Part shown: in pieces, positions 30,031 through 42,478 of the stretch
Numbering within the stretch: position 1 is the first letter of the stretch
Layout: each line of letters opens with the position of its first letter
NCBI GenBank assembly: GCA_023266575.1
Contig: JAHFPV010000005.1
Span: 62,001-126,000 of the forward strand
Source of the DNA: Sphingobium sp.
GTDB taxonomy: Bacteria > Pseudomonadota > Alphaproteobacteria > Sphingomonadales > Sphingomonadaceae
DNA: 64,000 nucleotides
Reading direction: 5' to 3'
Notes under the pieces: model-generated
The model's input: only the letters and a program-made list of their open reading frames with translations
Told to the model about the DNA's origin: nothing
Database searches by the model: none
Program-made: the position numbers and the translations under genes

Positions 30031-33000
30031 CTAGGGTGTCGTCGCATCGCGCTCAACCGGTGAGAGCGGCAAATTCTCCTGCGTGGGCGCAAAGCCCGGC
30101 TTGTGCGCCGCCAACAGGGCGGGCGGAAGGATGATGAGGCGCGGCGCGCTGGTGTAGAGCAACCCCGCCTCGATCACCCGATCGGGGAAGATCACTCCCA
30201 GTGCGGCGGCATAGGCAGCCATCTGCCGGACATGCGCCGTCGGCACATCGTCCACGCCCAGCGGCGCAACCCGGCCCGTCTTGAAATCGACGAGCTGGAT
30301 GCGATCCGGCCCGACGCATAGCCGGTCCACCGTCCCTGCAATCACCGCTTCGCCCACCACCGCTGCAATCGGCGCTTCGGCCAGCGCATCGGGGCTGAAC
30401 AGATCGGCAAAATCGGGAGCTTCGATCACGCGCAGTGCCTGCGCGATAACATCCTGCCTGACGGCGGCATCCCCCGCCCCCTGCTGGACCAGCCAGCGAT
30501 CGGCAGCGTCGCGACGGCGCTCAGGCTCCACGCCAGGCAGTCGCTCAAACAGGGCGTGGAGCCAACGCCCCCGCTCCGCAGCCGCACGCATCGCCGGGGT
30601 TGGCGGCGGGTAAGGCACATCATCCTCGACCGGTGCGGAAGGAGCCAGCGGTCTCGGCGGGCGCGCCTCGACCGGGGCGGGCTGACGCAGCCAGTCGGGC
30701 ATGTCCGCCGCCGTGCCTTCTTCTGCCGTCTCCGGCTCCGCCTTCCTGGACGGCAAATCCTCGGTACCGCGCCAGCGTCGCGTCGCGCCCCAGATCGGAT
30801 CAGCCTCCCACTCCGCGCCCAGCGACACCATCGCGCCCTCGACCGCGGCGAACCAGCTTTCGGGCTTCACTTCGCCCTTCGCTCGTGGTCCCAGCGATCC
30901 GGCGACGATCAGTTTCTCCTCTGCGCGGGTGAGGGCGACATAGAGCAGCCGCCAATGCTCCTCCCGTTTGACCGCAGCCGCCTGTTCGGCCACCTCGCCA
31001 ATCGGCCCCTGCCGCTCCGGCTTGCGCGGGGCCAGGATCGGCAGGCCGTTCCACAACAGCGAATCAGCGCGATTGCCCGCGTCGGGATCAAGGCAGGCAT
31101 CGGCCAATATGACGATCGGCGCCTGCAACCCCTTGGCCCCATGCACCGTCAGCAGGCGCAGCATGTCGCCCTGCGCCGCCGCATCGCGCACTATGTCGAC
31201 TTCGCCCCGGTCGAACCAATCAATGAAGCGCTGGAGCGAGGGATGGTCGTCACTCTCGAATGCCAGCGCGGCATTGAGCAATTCCTCGATCGGATCGACC
31301 GCTTCGGCCCCCAATCGCTCGATCAGGCGGCGGCGACCGTCCATCGGCCCGGACAGGATCGCCTCCAGATAGCGATAGGGGGTGGTGAAATCCGCCACCG
31401 CCAACAGATCGCGCAGGGGCCGCAACGTCGCATCGTCCAGCGTCTGGTTGAGGTGCCGCCACAGCCCGGTCTTGCGCCCGATCAGCCGGTGCATCAACTC
31501 GTCCTGGGTCCAGCCGAGCAGCGGCGACACGAGCAGCGACGCCATGTTCAACTCATCGTCGGGTTGCACCGCGAAGCGCAGCGCCGCCAGCAGATCGCGC
31601 ACCGCCAGCGGCGCATTCAGCCGCAGCCGGTCGATCCCCGCTACCGCCACCTTCTCCTCATACAGCCGCGCCACGATCAGCCGCGCCAGTTCGCTCCGCC
31701 GCCGGACCAGGATCATGATGTCCCCCGCGCGCACCGGACGTCCCCGGCTTTCCAGCATCACGCCTTCGTCGATCCACTGCTTGATCTGCTGCGCGATCTT
31801 CTGCGCCAACACCCGCTCCTGATCGGCGGCCCAATCCTCCTCACCCTCGGCATCATCGGACAGGTTGGCCACGACCGGCTTCCACAACATCACTTCGCCC
31901 GGATGCCGGTTGGCGCTGATATGACGGACGTCGCCCGCGACCATCCCCAGCTTCTCAGCCGTCAAAGTCGCAATGGTGCGGTCCACCACGTCCAGCACTG
32001 CCGGGGTGGAGCGGAAACTACGGTCGAGCGACAGCTCATGGAAATCATGCCCGCTATTGTCCGCGTCCCGCTGGAACAATATTTGCGCGGCGGCGAAATT
32101 GGCGGGGCTGGTCCCCTGGAAGCCGAAGATAGCCTGCTTGAAATCGCCCACGGTGAAGATGGTCCGCACCTTGTCGCCCGGCTGCCATTCGGTGGCAAAA
32201 AACTCCTCCGCCAGCGTCCGCACGATCCGCCATTGCGCGGCATTGGTGTCCTGCGCCTCATCCACCAATATATGGTCGATCCGCTGGTCCAGCTTGTAGC
32301 GGATCCATTCGGCGATCCCGTCCTGCTCCAGCAGCGCGGCGGCGCGGGCGATCAGATCGTCGAAATCCACCGCCCCCGCCAGCCGCTTGGCCTGCGCATA
32401 GGCCCGCGCATAAGCCCGCCCGGCATGAAGCGCCTGCCCTAGCAACGCGGCATAATCGGCGCGCAGCTTCATCGCGATCAGTTCGCCAGTGCGGTCATAC
32501 AGCCGCGTCGCCATCTCTGCATAACCGTCGATCGAGGGGACATAGCCCTTGGTCAGCATGATGTCGCCATCCGCCTTGGCCCAGGCGCGATGCAGGTCGG
32601 TCAGGGTGGCAGCGCGTCCGGCCGGATCGAGTGCGCGCCATGCGGCGATCCGGTCGCACCGTTCCAGCCCGCGACCCTTGCCCCATTGCACGTTCGCCTG
32701 CACGATCCGGTCCAGCGTTCGCATGTCGAAGCTGGCATCCTCGCACTGATCAGCCAACCACTGGTCGATATCGCCCTCCGGCAATCCCAGTTCCGCCATG
32801 ATCCAAGGCGTAATCGGATCGGGCAAGGCGTCCAGCGCCTCTACCCTGGCGGCGCAGCGCAGAAGATAGCTCTCCGCCCCGCCCTCGCCCAGCCGCAGGC
32901 TGATCGCCTGCAACGCCGCAAACAGCGCTTCGTCGCCCGTCTCATGCGCTCGCACCACCATGTCGGCCAGCGTCTGTCGGGCCAGGTTGGTCTGCTCCCG

Positions 33001-33462
33001 CTGGTCGAGCGGGCTGAAACCGGGCGTCAGGTCCGCCTCCAGCGGGAAGGCGGTCAGCAATTGCTGGCAAAAACCATGGATCGTCTGGATGCGCAGCCCA
33101 CCGCCGGTCGATTCCAGCACTTCGGCGAACAGCCGACGGGCAAAGTCACGCGCGTCCGGCCCGGACTCCTCGCCCAGCGCCTCCAGATCGGCAAACAGCC
33201 CCTTGTCATCCATCTGCACCCAGGCGGCGAGCCTGTCATGGATGCGATCGGCCATTTCCGCCGCACCCGCCTTGGTAAAGGTCAGGCACAATATATTTTC
33301 CGGTCGCACGCCTTGCAGCAGCAGGCGGAACACACGCGCGGTCAGCACATGGGTCTTGCCCGTGCCCGCCGACGCCGACAGCCAGACATGCGCGTCGGGC
33401 GCCGCGGCGCGGGCCTGATTGCCCAGCAAGGGTTGCAGCCCCTTAGCCATCGTCGCGGCCAT
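30031..33462 (-). CDS. addA: Double-strand-break repair helicase-nuclease AddA
   Basis: 1143-residue UvrD-like 3'-5' helicase with a C-terminal RecB-type nuclease, working with AddB to resect DNA ends to a recombinogenic 3' tail. It has Walker [21 protein letters not shown] at about residue 30, motif Ia [18 protein letters not shown], Walker [66 protein letters not shown], and nuclease core [14 protein letters not shown]. The start at 33462 overlaps addB by 20 bases; an in-frame ATG at 33450 is equally possible. Confidence 0.96.
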
Positions 33463-36412
33463 ACCATTCCTCCAGCCGCATCAACTGGTCATAATCGCCA
33501 TAATTGGCGACTTCAGGGTTGATCTCGGCACGGAAGGGTGCGCTGCCGAGCAGGAAGGCCTGCGCCAGTTCCTCGAACTGTTCATGAACCTTTGCCGTGA
33601 ACTCGGTTGTGACCATCTTGTCGCGCTTGCCAGTGGGATCGACCGGACTTTCGCGATAGCCGAACTGATCGCCCTTTTTTGCCAGCGACCAATATTCAAA
33701 ACCGCCCGCGATCTTCTTGCCACCGACGCCGTCAAACCCGCCAAGTTCGGCGATCACCCCCAACAGGCCGAGTTGCAGCGCAAAGCCCGCCTTCACCTGC
33801 CGCGCACTGGGCGGCTTACCGGTCTTGTAATCGATGATGCCCAGCGTGCCGTCGGGCAGCCGGTCGATCCGGTCGGCCTTCCCCATCAGCGTGACTTCGG
33901 CAATGTCGGCCCGCCCTTCCTTTTCGACCGCAAGGATGGTGCGCCCGTCCGCCTTGTCGCGCACGACCTCGGCAGCGATCCAGCGGATTGCCTCGATCAG
34001 GCGCGGTTGCCACAGCGCGCGCAGCAGCGGATGGACTTCGGGCCGGTTAAACATGGCGCGGGCGCGCGCTTCCAGATCGGCGGGGTCATGTGTTCCCGCC
34101 TCCGCCCAATGCTGGAGGATGTCATGCACCGCCGTCCCGCGCCAGGCTGGCCCGGCATCGGCATCGACCGGATCGAGCCGCGCGAGCCGCAGCACGCGCC
34201 GGGCGTAGAAAGCGTAAGGGTCCGCCTTCAACCGGTCGACATCGGTGACCGGAATGACGGTCGGGCGGGCCGAAACCGGTGGCGCAGGCACGGGACGAGC
34301 AACGGGATTATGCGTAGCAGGCGTGTCCAGCCCCCGCGCCTGTGCGGCATAGCGATCCGCCACCTTCCATTGCGGCCCGGCCATCGCCTTCAGTCGCAAC
34401 CAAAGCCGCGACGCGACCGCAGGCCCACCGCTGCCCCGCCGCGCACGGGTGATCAGCACATGCGGCGCGCCCAGCGCACTGGCGAAATCATGCGCGGCAA
34501 GGCCGATGCGCGTTTCCACCCCCGGCAAGCCCAGTTCCCGCCGGATACGCGGCGCCAGCCACGGATCAGGCGCGGGCAGCCCTGGCCAGGTGCCTTCGTT
34601 AAGGCCACCCAATATCATGAGGTCCGCCTGCACCAGCCGCGCCTCGATCAGGCCCAATATCGCGATGCGCGGATGCCCCCCCTGCGGCGGGCGAACCGAC
34701 ACCCCGCCCAGCATATGGTCGAGCAGCACTGGCAATGCCCGAATATCCGCCTGACGCGGGCCTTCATCGGCGGCTGCCTCCATTTCGGCGAACAGATCGG
34801 CGGCGGCATGGCCCTGATGCCCGGCCCAGACTGCATCACCCGTTAGCACACTCGACTGCTCGCGGATCGCAGCCAGTTGCCCCGCCAGATCGGTCGCAAC
34901 GCCAAAGGCCTGCTCCAGCGGTTCCAACAGAGCACGCGCGGCAGGCCACCAGTCTCGCACCTGATCGCGGACCGTGCGCTGCCGGTCATCCTCCCGCGCA
35001 GCCATCAGCATATCGATGCCCACCAGCCCCGCCTGCGGCCGCGGCCCGCGTAATAGCAAGTCCAGCGCCCGCACCCCGTCCAGCCAGGGCAGCCGCCCCT
35101 CGCCGCGCATGACCAGCGGATGCTTGAGCAATGTCAGCAGCGGCACCGGCGCGAACCGCTCCGCTACCGCCTGCGCCATCGCAATCAGCAACGTGCCAGG
35201 CGGCAGGCGCGACAGCGGCAGGCCCGCCGAATCGTCCGCTTCAATCCCCCAGCGTTTCAGATGCGCCGACACCCGCGTCGCAAGCTGCCGGTCAGGCGTC
35301 ACCAGCGCGGCGGTGCGTTTCTCCGTTTCCAGCGCCTCGCGCAGCGCAATCGCGATGGCCTGCGCCTCCTCTCCCGGTGTCGCCACCTCCAGCGCGGCGA
35401 CATCCGCCAGCGACCGATCCGCCGTCTTGAGGTCGCGCCACCGGCTGGTAAGCTTGGGCGGCAGCATCGCGTTCGAGATATTGCGCCCGCGCACCGCCCG
35501 CGCATCATGCTCACTGCCCCAGCGCCATTGCGCCACATCGTCGCGGGTCGCGCTCATGGCGTGGAGCAGGCGTTTCAGCGCATATTGCGGATGGCTCTCA
35601 TGTCCGGCGGGGGCATGGCCGGTGACCGGATCGGCGTCGAACGGACCAATCGCTTCCCACGCCTCATCGTCCATATGCTGGTCCAGCCCGGCAAACACCA
35701 CCATGCCGCCGGGCAGTTCACCGATCCGCCGCAGCAGCCCGGCAACCGCAGGCGCAGTCGTGGAAATACCAGCCGCAACAACAAAACCCGTCGGCGGATG
35801 GTCCCGCCAGCGCGCCGCCAGCCGGTCGAACAGCCGGTTGCGCCGCTCGGTCAGGTCCATGCAGCCCAGCCGCGCCAGTTCGTCCGGCCAGCGGGCAATC
35901 ACGATCTCGAACAGATGCAGCGACGTCTGCCAGTGGCGCGACAATTCATCGGACAGGGTCAGGTCGCGCAAGGCCGTCACCGGCACCCGCTCCACCTGCA
36001 TCTGGTCCAGCACTGCGCCCAGCGCCTGCCCCAGTTGCAGCGCCTGGCCCGCGTCAATATCGCCCTTCACCTGCTGCACCATCCGCGCCAGGATCATCTG
36101 GCGGCGCATTGGCGCAATCGCGGGCGGCAGTGGCTCCCCTTCCCCCAGCGGATCGAGCGCGCTGCCGACCTGCTCGCCAATGTCCGGGTCGCCGATCGCC
36201 ACCAGCCGGGGCAGCAACAGCCCGCCCCCCGACGCCCGCACAAACGCATCACTAACCGCCCGCACCGCGCGGTTGCTCGGCAACAGGATCATGCCCTGCG
36301 CCAGCGCCATCGGATCGCCACCATGGCGCGCCAACAGGCCAGCGACCAGCGCATCGGAAAAGGCGCGGTGCGCCGGAATGGAAAATAGCGCGGGGCGCCC
36401 GCGATCACCCAT
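33443..36412 (-). CDS. addB: Double-strand-break repair protein AddB (iron-sulfur-free type)
   Basis: 989-residue partner of AddA with an inactivated helicase part and a C-terminal PD-(D/E)xK nuclease core in GKADRIDRLPDGTLGIIDYKTGKPPS. It contains only one cysteine in its whole length. At the places where Bacillus-type AddB carries its 4Fe-4S ligands, this protein reads DPYAFYARRVLRL and VANYGDYDQLMRLEEW, with the cysteines replaced. It therefore belongs to the cluster-free alphaproteobacterial class. It overlaps murU by eight bases and addA by twenty. Confidence 0.93.
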   Translation of the reverse strand: MGDRGRPALFSIPAHRAFSDALVAGLLARHGGDPMALAQGMILLPSNRAVRAVSDAFVRASGGGLLLPRLVAIGDPDIGEQVGSALDPLGEGEPLPPAIAPMRRQMILARMVQQVKGDIDAGQALQLGQALGAVLDQMQVERVPVTALRDLTLSDELSRHWQTSLHLFEIVIARWPDELARLGCMDLTERRNRLFDRLAARWRDHPPTGFVVAAGISTTAPAVAGLLRRIGELPGGMVVFAGLDQHMDDEAWEAIGPFDADPVTGHAPAGHESHPQYALKRLLHAMSATRDDVAQWRWGSEHDARAVRGRNISNAMLPPKLTSRWRDLKTADRSLADVAALEVATPGEEAQAIAIALREALETEKRTAALVTPDRQLATRVSAHLKRWGIEADDSAGLPLSRLPPGTLLIAMAQAVAERFAPVPLLTLLKHPLVMRGEGRLPWLDGVRALDLLLRGPRPQAGLVGIDMLMAAREDDRQRTVRDQVRDWWPAARALLEPLEQAFGVATDLAGQLAAIREQSSVLTGDAVWAGHQGHAAADLFAEMEAAADEGPRQADIRALPVLLDHMLGGVSVRPPQGGHPRIAILGLIEARLVQADLMILGGLNEGTWPGLPAPDPWLAPRIRRELGLPGVETRIGLAAHDFASALGAPHVLITRARRGSGGPAVASRLWLRLKAMAGPQWKVADRYAAQARGLDTPATHNPVARPVPAPPVSARPTVIPVTDVDRLKADPYAFYARRVLRLARLDPVDADAGPAWRGTAVHDILQHWAEAGTHDPADLEARARAMFNRPEVHPLLRALWQPRLIEAIRWIAAEVVRDKADGRTILAVEKEGRADIAEVTLMGKADRIDRLPDGTLGIIDYKTGKPPSARQVKAGFALQLGLLGVIAELGGFDGVGGKKIAGGFEYWSLAKKGDQFGYRESPVDPTGKRDKMVTTEFTAKVHEQFEELAQAFLLGSAPFRAEINPEVANYGDYDQLMRLEEWYGRDDG

Positions 36413-37115
36413 GGGTGATCATGGATTCCACGACGGGGATGGCCTTGGGCGTGCCGACATCGAACCACAGCCCCTGATGCGAAACGCCGTAGAGCCGCCC
36501 CGCCTCGATCGCCCGGTTCCAGAAGATGTTGGTGGAAAACATGTCAGCGGGTGGATCGCGCAACAGCGAGGGCGACAATATCTCCACCCCGGTAAAAACG
36601 AAGGGCGCAACATGGGCGGTCTTGCGCCGGGTCAGGCGGCCGCCAGCGTCCATATGGAAATCGCCCGGCCCGCTATGGCAATGCGCCCGCGCCAGCGGCA
36701 CCAGCAACAGCAGCGCATCCATCCTGTCCGGGTCCCAGATGCGCTGCATCATGCCCAACGTTTCCTGCGGTCCGTCAATCCACAAATTGTCGCTATTGGC
36801 GCAAAAGAAGGGCTTGTCGCCCAGCAATGGCGCGGCATGGATCAGGCCGCCGCCGGTTTCCAGCAATTTGGCGCGCTCGTCGGAAATGACGAATTCCATG
36901 CCGCCCTTGCGCGTGCGCAAATGCGCCTCGACCGTGTCGGCGAGATAATGGACATTGACCACCACCTTGCGGATGCCGCCCGCTTCCAGCCGGTCGAGCG
37001 CATGGTCCATCAGCGGCTTACCTGCCACCTTGACCAGCGGCTTGGGCCGGGTGGCGGTCAGCGGACGCATCCGCTTCCCAAGGCCCGCCGCCATCAGCAT
37101 CGCTGTCTCGATCAT
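36405..37115 (-). CDS. murU: N-acetylmuramate-alpha-1-phosphate uridylyltransferase
   Basis: A 236-residue sugar-phosphate nucleotidyltransferase. The N-terminal AMLMAAGLGKRMRPLTATRPKPLVKVAGKPLMDHAL is the nucleotide-binding signature with the catalytic Arg/Lys; VVNVHYLADTV, SDERAKLLETGGGLIHA and FCANSDNLWIDG (metal Asp) follow. It makes UDP-MurNAc from MurNAc-1-phosphate, letting the cell reuse MurNAc without de novo synthesis through MurA. The assignment rests on the family plus the overlapping AmgK-like kinase directly upstream, the pair defined in Pseudomonas. A generic hexose-1-phosphate enzyme is the alternative. Confidence 0.88.
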   Translation of the reverse strand: MIETAMLMAAGLGKRMRPLTATRPKPLVKVAGKPLMDHALDRLEAGGIRKVVVNVHYLADTVEAHLRTRKGGMEFVISDERAKLLETGGGLIHAAPLLGDKPFFCANSDNLWIDGPQETLGMMQRIWDPDRMDALLLLVPLARAHCHSGPGDFHMDAGGRLTRRKTAHVAPFVFTGVEILSPSLLRDPPADMFSTNIFWNRAIEAGRLYGVSHQGLWFDVGTPKAIPVVESMITHG

Positions 37116-38098
37116 GCTGGAGCATGTTCCGCCAGCGCATCATGGCGCTGATCAGCCGGTATGTTGGCGGTGAACCACTGCGCCACCGGGGCCAGCGCGG
37201 GATGGGCCAGGTCGCGCTCCAGCAATCCCCACATGCGCGGCAGGAAGCTGAGGTAACGCGGCTTGCCGTCGCGCTGCCACAGGCGGGTGAAGATGCCGAT
37301 GATCTTGGCGTTCCGCTGCGCCCCAAGCACCGCATAGGCCGCGTCGAAATCATCTGGCGGCGCAGCAATCGCCTTGTAGCGCGCCAGCATCGCCGCCTCG
37401 ACCTGCGGCGGCACGTCACGCCGCGCGTCCTGCAACAGCGACACCAGATCATAGGCCGGATGCCCGGCTAGTGCGTCCTGAAAATCGAGCAGGCCCAGGC
37501 CATGAGACGTCGCCCGGTCGATCAGCATGATATTTTCCGCATGATAGTCGCGCAGCACGGTGACGGTCGGACTGGCGGACTGTTCGACGACCGGCAGCAC
37601 TGCGTCCCACGCCGCGACATAGGCGTCCTGATCGACCGAAAGACCGATGGCGGGGCAATACCACTCGGTGAGCAGTCCTACTTCCCGTTGATAGACCGCC
37701 CGGTCATAAGGCGGCACCGGCGCGGCGGGCAGGCGGTGGAGGTCGGCCAGCAGATCGATAGCGCGGCCATAGACCGCCAGTTCCGCATCCGGCTGATCGT
37801 CAACATGCTCCTTGACCCGCAGGTCGCCAAAATCCTCGATCAGCACCAGCCCCCGTTCCAGATCGCGTGCCAATATCCGTGGCGCGGCAAAGCCATCTTC
37901 CAGCAGATGTTCGGCAATCGTGATGAACGGGCGCGGATCTTCATGCGGTGGCGGCGCATCCATCAGCACCGCGCGGCGTCCGCCGTCGATGATGCGGAAA
38001 TAGCGGCGGAACGAAGCGTCCCCGGCCAGCGGCACGATGGCGGCATCGCCCCATCCGGCTTGGCCGAGGAAAGCCGGCGCGGCGGCGGGGGGGATCAT
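37112..38098 (-). CDS. amgK: Anomeric MurNAc/GlcNAc kinase AmgK (aminoglycoside phosphotransferase fold)
   Basis: A 328-residue kinase that phosphorylates MurNAc at C1. It has ASFRRYFRIIDGGRRAVLMDAPP near the N terminus (ATP-binding Lys/Met region), VLIEDFGDLRV, VTVLRDYHAENIMLIDR (catalytic loop with Asp) and HGLGLLDFQDALAGHPAYDLVSLLQDARRDV (metal Asp in DFQD), all typical of AmgK and related APH-fold kinases. ATG 38098 overlaps the tsaE stop as ATGA, so I prefer it to in-frame ATGs at 38110 and 38122. It overlaps murU by four bases. Together they form the recycling shortcut that confers fosfomycin tolerance in other bacteria. Confidence 0.88.
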   Translation of the reverse strand: MIPPAAAPAFLGQAGWGDAAIVPLAGDASFRRYFRIIDGGRRAVLMDAPPPHEDPRPFITIAEHLLEDGFAAPRILARDLERGLVLIEDFGDLRVKEHVDDQPDAELAVYGRAIDLLADLHRLPAAPVPPYDRAVYQREVGLLTEWYCPAIGLSVDQDAYVAAWDAVLPVVEQSASPTVTVLRDYHAENIMLIDRATSHGLGLLDFQDALAGHPAYDLVSLLQDARRDVPPQVEAAMLARYKAIAAPPDDFDAAYAVLGAQRNAKIIGIFTRLWQRDGKPRYLSFLPRMWGLLERDLAHPALAPVAQWFTANIPADQRHDALAEHAPA

Positions 38099-38553
38099 AT
38101 CTGTGACCATCGATCCGTCCAAGCGTCGGGCACGTCCGCTGTCAAGCGCCGAGCGCCATCCGCCTCAATCGTGATGGTCAAACGCAAGGCGTGGGACCAT
38201 AGCCGCGCGCCCAGCCGGTCGGGCCATTCGATGATCAGAAGGCTCTCCATCAGATAGTCGCCCAGCGCCAGTTCCTCCGTCTCCTCCGGCGTATCGAGCC
38301 GATAGAGATCGACATGCGCGACCGGCAGCCGGACTTCAGGCACGTCATAGGGCTGGACGATCGCGAAGCTCGGACTGGGCGCTTCGCCCGCCAGTCCCAA
38401 TGCTTCCAATATGCCCCGCGCCAGCGTTGTCTTGCCCGCGCCAAGCCCGCCCTCCAGCCCAATGACATCGCCGATTCGCACATGGGTGGCGATGCGATGG
38501 CCCAGATCCAGCATCGCCGCTTCATCCGTAAGATGCAGCGCCGCGTCAGCCAC
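38095..38553 (-). CDS. tsaE: tRNA threonylcarbamoyladenosine biosynthesis ATPase TsaE
   Basis: A 152-residue P-loop ATPase that works with TsaB, TsaD and TsaC in making t6A37 on ANN-decoding tRNAs. It shows IGLEGGLGAGKTTLARGILEALG (Walker A, about residue 40), PSPSFAIVQPYD and HVDLYRLDTPEETEELALGDYL (Walker B-like DLYR), and LLIIEWPDRLG. It overlaps the kinase gene upstream by eight bases and amgK by four. The tsaE-amgK-murU order recurs in proteobacteria. The other tsa genes are outside the window. Confidence 0.95.
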   Translation of the reverse strand: MADAALHLTDEAAMLDLGHRIATHVRIGDVIGLEGGLGAGKTTLARGILEALGLAGEAPSPSFAIVQPYDVPEVRLPVAHVDLYRLDTPEETEELALGDYLMESLLIIEWPDRLGARLWSHALRLTITIEADGARRLTADVPDAWTDRWSQI

Positions 38554-40909
38554 GGGGCAGCTCGATCACCACCATCGTCCCCTGCCCGGCCTGCGATACC
38601 AGCTCCAGCGTCCCGCCATGCGCCTGCGCCAGCTGCCGGGCCAGCGGCAGGCCGATCCCGGCCTTGCCCCCGGTGCGCGCCTGTCCGGCGCGGGCGGTGG
38701 GATCGAACAACAATTTCTGCTGTTTTACGGAGATGCCCGGCCCATTGTCGGAAATAACGATCCGCGCACGATCCGCCCCGCCATCGCCATGCAGCAGCAC
38801 CCGCGCGCTCTTGCCGCAGTAACGCACTGCATTTTCGAGGAGATGGTCGATCGCCTGCCCGATCCGGCGGGCGTCCCCCTGCACCTGACCCAGGCTGGCC
38901 TCTATCGTCACCGCCAGATCAATCCCCTTCGCGTTCGCATCGGCACGGACGCGATCGGCGCTGGCGCGCGCAACGGCGGCCAGATCGACCGGCGCGCGGT
39001 CGATCGGCAACGTCCCGGCCTCGCCCTGCGTCAGGTCCAGCACATTGTCGATCAGCATCGACAGCCGCCCCGTGCTTTGCAGGATTCCATCGACATAGTC
39101 CTTGGCCGATGCGCTCAGTTCCCCGGCATAGCCCGCGCTCATCATCTCGGCGAACCCGGCGATCGTCGTCAGCGGCGTGCGCAATTCATAGCTCATATTG
39201 GTGACGAAGGCGGTCTTGACCTCATCGGCCTGCTCCAGCGCCACGTTGCGGTCGCGCAGCACCTGTTCGACACGGCGGCTGTCAGTCACATCGAGCATGG
39301 TGAAAAGCGCGTTGCCATCGGGCAGCGGGATGGCGGCAAATTCAAAAATGCGTCCGTCGGCAAAACCGACATGGCCAATCCGCTGCTTGCGCTCGACCGT
39401 CGCGGCGCGGACCAGTTCGCGCACCAGATTGGACTGTTGCGGCTTGGCCAGACGTTCCTGCACCGCGCGCATCAGATCATCGATACGTGGATGGGTCGCC
39501 AGCATGTCCTCGTCCGCGCCCCAGACGGTGCGGAAACGGCTGTTCCACATCTGGAGGCGCCCATCGGACGAAAACACCCCGATCGATTCGAACAGATTGT
39601 CGAATGTCGCCGTCCGCACCCGCAGCAGCGTGTCGCGCGCACTCGACAGCTGCACCTGCTCGGTGCGATCCTCAAAGATCAGCAGCAGGCCGCCGTCGGG
39701 TAGCGGCTGGGCATAGACGCGCAAATGGGTGCCGTCCTGCAACAGCCAGTTTTCCTCGACCGGATCGGGCGACAGGAACCAGTCGCGCCGTTCCCCGCGC
39801 CAGGCGGGAAAGTCGCGATGTTCGGGCAGGCGGCGGGCATCCCGCATCTGGTCCAGCACCCGCTCGAACAGGGGCGCGTCGGCCAATTGCTCCTGATGCA
39901 GGCCGAACAGGCTGATGAAGGGCTGGTTCCAGAAACGCAGCGCCCGGTCGGGACCAAAGCGCGCGACGCCCGCCGACAGCCGATCCAGCAAGTCGCGTTG
40001 CGCCGCCTCCAGACGGCGATGCTCGACCCGCGCCTGTTCCAGCTCATGTTGATCGACCGCATAGCCAGCCACTCCGGCCTCGCCCAGCGGCACATCGACC
40101 ACGCGCATGGTGCGCCGTTCGCCGTCGATGGTGGCCGGGACCATGCGCTCGACCGGTTCGCCCCGCGCCAGCGCATCGGCGGCGGCGGCTTGCGGGGTCA
40201 GTCCGCTCACCGCCTCGACCAGTTCCACGCCGCTGCCAATCACCTCGCGCGCATCGGCGCCGTCCACCGCGCGGACATAGGCGCTGTTGACGAGGCTGAG
40301 GCGCAGGTCGGGGGTGCGGTGCCACATCGGGAAGGGCGCAGCTTCGACCAGACCGGCCAAAGCCTCCAGCGCATCGCGCAGCTGCTCCACCTGGCCTTTG
40401 AGCGCCTGAATTTCGGACTGGCTGTCGGTCGCGTCGAAAATCCACAGCACGACGCCGCCATTGGATGCCAGACCGGGCGAGGCAGGTGCGCCGCGCACGA
40501 GCAACAGCCGCGACGACCCGACGCCCCGCACCGGCAGGGCAAAGCTCTTGCCTGCTTTCTGTGCCGACGCGATCTCGCGCGCCAGCGCGGCGGCATCGTC
40601 AGGTTCCAGCCCGCCGTCAGCGGCAATCAGTTCAGAAGCAAAGGTCGGAACGCGGGGCTTGCCCAGCCATTTGGCGAGGCGATCGGCCGCCTCCAGCCTG
40701 CCATCGGGATGGATAACGACGGGCGCGGCAGGCGCGGAAGCCAGCAGCATCGCAAGCCGATCAAGCTTGCCCTGCGCCTGCATCCCCTCGCGCCGCATCC
40801 GCTGGCCGGTGGCGAGCGCCCACACGGCGCCCCCCAGCCATAGGGCCAGCACGACACCCAATATGATGGCGGCCATGGGGGTCAGCGTCATTGCGCCCTC
40901 TGCTCCCAT
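38546..40909 (-). CDS. divL: DivL-like cell-cycle tyrosine pseudo-histidine kinase
   Basis: A 787-residue membrane protein: one N-terminal membrane helix (MAAIILGVVLALWLGGAVWAL), a region of PAS-like sensor domains (about 60-540), a DHp domain and a HATPase. The DHp motif reads AFVTNMSYELRTPLTTIAGFAEMM, so the expected acceptor His is Tyr574 (codon TAT, 39188-39190). The catalytic domain is intact: HLLENAVRY (N box), ISDNGPGI (G1) and GGKAGIGLPLARQLA (G2). Tyr at this place is the hallmark of Caulobacter DivL, which controls CckA and hence CtrA in response to DivK. An ATG at 40891 has a better ribosome site (GAGGG) and would remove six residues. It heads the tsaE-amgK-murU-addBA string. Confidence 0.85.
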   Translation of the reverse strand: MGAEGAMTLTPMAAIILGVVLALWLGGAVWALATGQRMRREGMQAQGKLDRLAMLLASAPAAPVVIHPDGRLEAADRLAKWLGKPRVPTFASELIAADGGLEPDDAAALAREIASAQKAGKSFALPVRGVGSSRLLLVRGAPASPGLASNGGVVLWIFDATDSQSEIQALKGQVEQLRDALEALAGLVEAAPFPMWHRTPDLRLSLVNSAYVRAVDGADAREVIGSGVELVEAVSGLTPQAAAADALARGEPVERMVPATIDGERRTMRVVDVPLGEAGVAGYAVDQHELEQARVEHRRLEAAQRDLLDRLSAGVARFGPDRALRFWNQPFISLFGLHQEQLADAPLFERVLDQMRDARRLPEHRDFPAWRGERRDWFLSPDPVEENWLLQDGTHLRVYAQPLPDGGLLLIFEDRTEQVQLSSARDTLLRVRTATFDNLFESIGVFSSDGRLQMWNSRFRTVWGADEDMLATHPRIDDLMRAVQERLAKPQQSNLVRELVRAATVERKQRIGHVGFADGRIFEFAAIPLPDGNALFTMLDVTDSRRVEQVLRDRNVALEQADEVKTAFVTNMSYELRTPLTTIAGFAEMMSAGYAGELSASAKDYVDGILQSTGRLSMLIDNVLDLTQGEAGTLPIDRAPVDLAAVARASADRVRADANAKGIDLAVTIEASLGQVQGDARRIGQAIDHLLENAVRYCGKSARVLLHGDGGADRARIVISDNGPGISVKQQKLLFDPTARAGQARTGGKAGIGLPLARQLAQAHGGTLELVSQAGQGTMVVIELPRG

Positions 40910-41020: not shown

Positions 41021-41053
41021 AAAAAGGGGGAAGGCATCGCCCTCCCCCTTTTT
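41021..41053 (-). terminator. Intrinsic terminator of ahcY
   Basis: On the minus strand, a stem of GGGGGAGGG with CCTTCCCCC around a short GCGAT-type loop, flanked by A and T runs and ending in TTTTTT, 7 bases after the ahcY stop. A second small inverted repeat, ATTGCCC / AGGGCAAT, lies just beyond at 40993-41018. Confidence 0.85.
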
Positions 41054-41059
41054 GCCTGA

Positions 41060-42478
41060 TCAGTAGCGGTAATGGTCGGGCTTGAACGGCCCTTCGACCG
41101 GCACGCCGATATAGTCGGCCTGTTTCTGGCTCAGCTTGGTGAGCTTCACGCCCAGCTTTTCCAGATGCAGTTCGGCGACCTTCTCGTCCAGATGCTTGGG
41201 CAGGACATAGACCTCGTTCTTATACTGCTCGCTCTTGGTCCATAGCTCGATCTGCGCCAGCGTCTGGTTGGTGAAGCTGGCCGACATGACGAAGCTGGGG
41301 TGGCCGGTGGCATTGCCCAGGTTGACCAGACGCCCCTTCGACAGGACGATGATCTTCTTGCCGTCGGGAAACTCAACTTCGTCCACCTGCGGCTTGATCT
41401 CGGTCCATTTGAAATTCTGGAGACCGGCAATCTCGATCTCGCTGTCGAAATGGCCGATATTGGACACGATCGCCATATTCTTCATCGCGCGCATATGATC
41501 GACGGTCAGCACGCCTTCATTGCCGGTCGCGGTGACGAAAATGTCGGCGCGCGGGGCGGCCTCTTCCATCGTCACGACTTCATAGCCTTCCATCGCCGCC
41601 TGCAACGCGCAGATCGGATCGACTTCGGTGACCAGCACGCGCGCGCCGCCATTGCGGAGCGACGCGGCAGACCCCTTGCCGACGTCGCCGAAACCCGCGA
41701 CGCACGCGACCTTGCCGGCCAGCATCACGTCGGTGCCGCGACGGATCGCGTCGACGAGGCTTTCCTTGCAACCATAAAGATTGTCGAACTTTGACTTGGT
41801 GACGCTGTCATTCACGTTGATCGCGGGGAAAGGCAGCTTGCCCTTCTTGGCCAGCTCATACAGGCGATGGACGCCGGTGGTCGTCTCTTCCGACACGCCC
41901 TTGATGGCGGCGACCGTCTTAGTCAGGAAGCCGGGACGTTCGGCAAGAACGCGCTTCAGCACCGCGCAGAAGATTTCCTCTTCTTCGTTTGACGGCGTGA
42001 ACAGCTCTTCACCGGCCTCGACCCGTGCGCCCCACAGGGCAAACATGGTAGCGTCGCCGCCATCGTCCAGGATCATGTTGCACACGCCCGACGGATCATT
42101 GTGCCAGTCGAAGATGCGTTCGACATAGTCCCAATATTCCTGCAGCGTTTCGCCCTTGATGGCGAACACGGGAACGCCCGACGCGGCGATCGCGGCGGCG
42201 GCATGGTCCTGCGTTGAATAGATGTTGCAGGTCGCCCAGCGAACCTGCGCGCCCAGCGCAGTCAGCGTTTCGATCAGCACGGCGGTCTGGATCGTCATAT
42301 GCAGCGAGCCGGTGATGCGCGCGCCTTTCAGCGGCTGCGACGGGCCGAATTCCGCGCGCAGGGCCATCAGGCCCGGCATTTCGGTTTCGGCGATATCCAT
42401 TTCCTTGCGGCCGAAATCGGCCAGGGCGATATCGGCGATCACATAATCCTGCGCCAGGGTGGCGGAAGCGGTGGCCAC
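41060..42478 (-). CDS. ahcY: S-adenosylhomocysteinase
   Basis: NAD-dependent hydrolysis of S-adenosylhomocysteine to adenosine and homocysteine, keeping the methyl cycle running. The 472-residue protein shows the family blocks: [66 protein letters not shown], the NAD-binding [35 protein letters not shown], and a C-terminal KPDHYRY that closes the active site of the neighbouring subunit. Start is GTG with GGAG eight bases upstream. The leader holds a terminator-like hairpin and, further up, a palindrome (both listed separately), pointing to regulated expression. Confidence 0.98.

Follow-up and report, generated by a model that had tools for sequence, protein, structure and literature searches.

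Background

The closest described counterpart of the gene considered here is DivL of Caulobacter crescentus (PDB 4q20; PMC4211667), which has a PAS-DHp-CA layout and a tyrosine at the phospho-acceptor position. In the part of that report available to us, no activity as a kinase or a phosphatase is found for Caulobacter DivL in vitro, its essential functions are independent of a phosphorylated DHp domain, and its DHp domain binds phosphorylated DivK (DivK~P), the effect of which is thought to be a changed action on CckA; tyrosine is given there for alphaproteobacterial DivL throughout, with Magnetospirillum magneticum (alanine) as the exception. The gene context also has a described counterpart, the bvrR/bvrS operon of Brucella, where RT-PCR placed ahcY, an unknown gene, divL, tsaE, a nucleotidyltransferase gene, addB and addA on one transcript of 16 genes, an arrangement that the accessible portion of the source calls ancestral to the class (PMC9491525). 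Among sphingomonads the DivJ-PleC-DivK system was described in 2010 as degenerate or lost, and several of them were said to have a divK-like gene whose phylogeny is unusual (PMC2877005, in excerpt).

Here we follow up a divL-like gene in a 64,000-nucleotide stretch of Sphingobium sp. DNA, which we call the window. An earlier note, made from the sequence alone, had read it as a DivL-type gene heading a tsaE-amgK-murU-addBA operon. We find that the gene is very probably the Sphingobium DivL orthologue, and that neither its tyrosine nor its gene context is unusual in the class, so that the find as such is not new; certain natural variants of the protein in its relatives are worth more than the find itself.

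Evidence for a DivL orthologue in the window

The translated gene has a hydrophobic N-terminal stretch and scores above the Pfam cut-offs for PAS_7, PAS_4, PAS_8, HisKA (residues 565-632) and HATPase_c (residues 678-786). Its DHp motif reads FVTNMSYELRTPLTTI, and the tyrosine codon located by the earlier note was recovered on translation of the minus strand, a detail missing from that note. The histidine that marks active kinases of the PleC/DivJ type is absent, with Tyr574 there instead. The ATP domain retains LLENAVRY, DNGPGI and GKAGIGL, which we take to be the N, G1 and G2 boxes; all three are readable, as had been claimed. The annotated start is the ATG at 40909; in the homologue alignments the match to many relatives begins only near residue 7, so that Met7 (40891) is a likely alternative and may be the real start. 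The protein is 99% identical to DivL of S. terrigena (98% in the kinase region), which also has the tyrosine.

Among solved structures the best match is Caulobacter DivL 4q20, with 134 bits versus 97 for the next, and the two proteins have the motif SYELRTPLTTI in common. Alignment with the DivK-docking positions of Caulobacter DivL (numbered as in the available part of PMC4211667) showed that R553 and T557 are kept as R577 and T581, whereas Y562 and H579 correspond to the aromatic residues F586 and Y605; in addition, Ala601 of the Caulobacter protein is Thr627 here. F586 and Y605 are the commonest letters of their columns in the class (128/144 and 130/144), and the T557 column holds asparagine in 105 and threonine in 27 of the 144 loci; these class counts are biased, as the loci are the best 144 of 176 matching non-family genomes, with 32 lower-scoring ones unread. 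At a threshold of E<=1e-30 the underlying class search matched 181 of the 289 genomes, five of them in the family.

A maximum-likelihood tree of the kinase region, one of the checks proposed in the earlier note, placed 67 DivL-type rows, Caulobacter DivL among them, apart from 12 other kinases of the same genome, including CckA; PleC and DivJ reference proteins were not among its rows. The separating branch has a bootstrap of 97, itself not quite settled, and an SH-aLRT of only 76. Before drops, the class rows comprised all 7 with histidine, 12 otherwise odd ones and a random 34 of the 121 with tyrosine; to these were added 8 of 32 family and 7 of 80 named loci, and the acceptor column was kept in the alignment. 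The rows L084, L096 and L126 and the own-genome rows L260, L262, L265, L267 and L271 were dropped.

The genome also holds the partners known from Caulobacter. Its DivK (L309) matches Caulobacter DivK with 133 bits versus 71 for the next, its CckA matches the solved proteins of that name 5idj and 5idm with 242 and 148.5 bits (559 bits to the model NF046020, below the cut-off of 1000), and ChpT is present at 119 bits. Unlike in Caulobacter, no DivJ model scored above its cut-off in the 18 scanned of the genome's 25 HisKA-bearing frames. A CheY-like gene beside cheB had been a candidate for DivK-PleD and was rejected on reading its sequence. Five lines of evidence support the identification as DivL: the closest solved structure, the placement in the tree, the tyrosine at the acceptor position, the gene context and the three partner proteins encoded in the genome.

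Table 1. Features of the divL locus (window positions)
Feature	Position	Strand	Basis
divL: PAS-DHp-CA pseudo-histidine kinase, 787 aa	38546..40909	-	ORF translation and domain search
Tyr574 codon TAT, phospho-acceptor position (= Caulobacter Tyr550)	39188..39190	-	translation, alignment
tsaE, overlaps divL by 8 bp	38095..38553	-	TIGR00150, 110 bits, cut-off 60
amgK-like MurNAc/GlcNAc kinase, start uncertain	37112..38122	-	NF045698, 236 bits, below cut-off 500
murU-like MurNAc-1-P uridylyltransferase	36405..37115	-	NF045697, 256 bits, below cut-off 370
addB	33443..36412	-	TIGR02786, 893 bits, cut-off 486.5
addA	30031..33462	-	TIGR02784, 1028 bits, cut-off 861
ahcY, upstream neighbour	41060..42478	-	TIGR00936, 586.5 bits, cut-off 497.6
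terminator-like hairpin and T-run between ahcY and divL	41027..41048	-	sequence rule

The acceptor position across relatives

The alignment of the acceptor position across sphingomonads, likewise proposed earlier, showed tyrosine in every family locus read, 33 of 33, out of 89 matching genomes; G302 and G338 were read in addition. Of the 80 named loci, 79 have the tyrosine, as do 121 of the 144 class loci, the remaining 23 having His (7), Phe (4), Thr (3), Arg (2), Val, Ser and Gly (1 each) or gaps (4). Within the window genome, which has 25 HisKA matches, the position is histidine in 16 of 17 aligned kinases, with tyrosine in DivL alone. The earlier note had named orthologues with histidine as evidence that would count against DivL; such orthologues do occur outside the sphingomonad loci read, but they do not undo the identification.

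The eightieth named locus (L222, Sphingobium sp. Ant17) has a divL frame that breaks before the acceptor, through a frameshift or a sequencing error.

Gene neighbourhood and transcription

The neighbours named in the earlier note do lie downstream of divL on the same strand (Table 1), AmgK and MurU scoring below their own NCBIfam cut-offs. Successive genes from divL to addA overlap by 8, 28, 4, 8 and 20 bp, where the value of 28 depends on a TTG start that was assigned mechanically. Of the 80 named loci, all have tsaE and amgK on the same strand as divL, 77 have murU there and 75 addB, some contigs ending early. We also took 119 class loci with flanks of about 4 kb, or as far as the contig reached: on the strand of divL, 75 have ahcY upstream and 57 have tsaE downstream, 88 have at least one of the two and 31 have neither, to which contig ends may contribute. 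The ahcY-divL-tsaE order is present in the window, which shares with the Brucella operon a set of genes in the same order, co-transcribed there. The Brucella gene annotated as mannose-1-P guanylyltransferase would be the counterpart of MurU; amgK is absent from the operon table in the available part of that report (PMC9491525), whereas the window has an amgK-like gene. The association of divL with the tsaE-amgK-murU-addBA neighbourhood is old, class-wide and already in print.

Unlike Brucella, where ahcY and divL share a transcript, the window has a terminator-like hairpin between them, which suggests that divL heads its transcript here. A similar hairpin with a T-run follows ahcY in 38 of the 67 named loci with ahcY in view, versus 1 of 670 shuffles, by a home-made rule that scans the first 120 bases after ahcY (25/36 in a mostly Sphingobium subset; absent in 29/67; a looser earlier version gave 45/67 and had no control). 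Because of this recurrence divL probably begins its own transcript in many sphingomonads. The claim that divL heads an operon is thus plausible in view of the gene overlaps and the hairpin; that a single transcript would run from divL through tsaE-amgK-murU-addBA is a prediction from the gene arrangement. No promoter-like site was found upstream of divL. The window has no perfect or one-mismatch TTAA-N7-TTAA, which we take to be the CtrA-type site, with 1.6 expected by chance, and no GANTC site was seen in the 150-base ahcY-divL spacer.

Absence of DivL and DivK in the family

Searches of 99 family genomes gave a DivL match in 89 (E<=1e-60) and a DivK-like match in 86 (E<=1e-25), the window DivK being the only one compared with a solved DivK. 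Absence of DivL here denotes no match at that threshold, which missed a remnant in G299, and a diverged DivL elsewhere is possible. DivK is without a match in 9 of the 10 genomes lacking a DivL match versus 4 of the 89 with one (Fisher 4e-9), so that the two proteins tend to be missing from the same genomes. This tendency comes from just two independent tree events for DivL and is not significant once kinship is counted. By DivK match, the ratio of acceptor tyrosine to other letters is 113:8 with and 6:6 without (p 3e-4, kinship uncorrected). A strict rule is contradicted by G302, G338 and G339, which have a tyrosine-bearing DivL and no DivK match, and by G242 and G162, which have DivK and a blank DHp position in the best DivL frame, the only frame considered.

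Eight sphingomonads (L362-L364, L366-L369 and L371) have no DivL match within 1.5 kb of tsaE; tsaE, amgK and murU are kept there and ahcY lies upstream in seven. Five of the eight lack ChpT, and the other three give a weak ChpT match. One more genome, G373, gave neither a DivL nor a tsaE match, which may reflect an assembly gap. The counts of 86 and 89 of 99 update the 2010 picture of the sphingomonad DivJ-PleC-DivK system (PMC2877005, in excerpt). Since most family genomes give both DivK-like and DivL matches, Sphingobium is a place to study a DivL-DivK switch; no DivJ model passed among the frames scanned in the window genome.

Alternative readings and a proposed mechanism

We consider it likely, with a probability of roughly 0.88, that the window gene is a DivL orthologue acting most likely as Caulobacter DivL does, and that the genes beside it were inherited as a cluster and do not belong to the switch. 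That it might be an ordinary sensor kinase with a chance tyrosine, through pseudogenization or a sequencing error, found no support: the frame is open, the tyrosine recurs in 33/33 family loci read and 79/80 named ones as well as in S. terrigena, and 16 other aligned kinases of the same genome have histidine, all of which argues against chance and makes this reading negligible. On a proposal originally made for Caulobacter DivL, Tyr574 would itself take up phosphate and the protein would be a tyrosine kinase; the N, G1 and G2 boxes, as we have named them, are indeed still readable. However, the Caulobacter protein shows no activity as a kinase or a phosphatase, and a phosphorylated DHp is not required for what it essentially does in the cell, at least in the available part of PMC4211667; we hold this reading to be very improbable.

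The earlier note went further in proposing that one transcript jointly sets the level of DivL, wall recycling and DNA repair. The tight overlaps, the same-strand conservation in the named loci (tsaE and amgK 80/80, murU 77/80, addB 75/80, with some contigs ending early) and the co-transcription of divL, tsaE, the nucleotidyltransferase gene, addB and addA in Brucella (RT-PCR; PMC9491525, in part) are what such a functional link would lead one to expect. Yet the neighbourhood is class-wide, all eight sphingomonads without a DivL match at the locus keep tsaE, amgK and murU, in 31 of the 119 class loci ahcY and tsaE are both missing from the strand of divL (contig ends may contribute), and Caulobacter without amgK has no significant shape defect as far as the accessible text goes (PMC13046382). 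We regard a coupling of checkpoint, wall turnover and repair as unlikely.

Under the preferred reading, a DivL orthologue beside inherited neighbours, the protein would be a membrane-anchored PAS pseudokinase whose DHp domain would no longer accept phosphate and would offer a surface on which phosphorylated DivK docks and is sensed. The state of DivL would then determine whether CckA works on the ChpT-CtrA relay in its kinase or its phosphatase mode, with the neighbouring genes lying outside this switch. We infer DivK~P binding, control of CckA and absence of kinase activity for the window DivL from its likeness to the Caulobacter protein. Its physiological weight may differ from that in Caulobacter, because ctrA is non-essential in Sphingomonas melonis (PMC8116508, in excerpt).

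Natural variants of DivL

Two sister sphingomonads (G299 and G327; support 95/55) encode a DivL that has lost the DHp domain and keeps the PAS part and a decaying CA domain (L365 and L370), the deletion spanning about residues 540-635 in G299 and 565-628 in G327. Neither has a DivK match (E<=1e-25), and both keep ChpT (90.8 and 95.1 bits). The short DivL of Rhodobacterales likewise keeps the PAS part, and in the portion of the report available it has no pseudokinase part and no DivK, in contrast to the window DivL, which has DHp and CA domains and a DivK in its genome (PMC9430884).

The converse variant has histidine at the acceptor position. In all three genomes sampled of the family f33 (L064, L080 and L081) the motif reads VSHELRTPLNTIIG, the N, G1 and G2 boxes are intact, and the full ahcY-divL-tsaE-amgK-murU-addB order is present. 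L045 combines the histidine with intact boxes and shows none of these neighbours in the stretch visible; in L127 and L129 the histidine and the neighbours are present and the ATP boxes have decayed; in L121 the histidine goes with a changed G1 box, again with none of the neighbours visible. Each of the seven genomes gave a DivK match, a weak one (4e-22) in the case of L121 (G203). The seven rows fall among tyrosine-bearing DivL rows in the tree, and an AU test did not reject their grouping as one clade (p 0.1), so that the histidine may have one origin or several. A limited literature search, including the available part of PMC4211667, found no published report of a His-bearing DivL orthologue.

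The f33 proteins are possibly active DivL kinases. Because they combine histidine, intact boxes, the locus order and a place among the tyrosine rows, we tentatively suggest, with some doubt, that the tyrosine is no dead end for DivL, an active kinase perhaps having been kept or regained in f33, and that G327 and G299 may be a natural domain-removal experiment for DivK sensing. The f33 histidine forms and the DHp-less forms are natural variants with which to test why DivL lost its histidine.

Other departures were seen among the relatives. L022 (G260) has a TAG stop exactly at the acceptor codon of a DivL frame that otherwise continues, which may be an error of the draft genome. L131, L137 and L139, from the 0.8-1.0 Mb genomes of the family f44, have threonine there, decayed ATP boxes and no DivK match. 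A second DivL-like match (C38:3120-5399) was found in G053, the genome that also holds L017.
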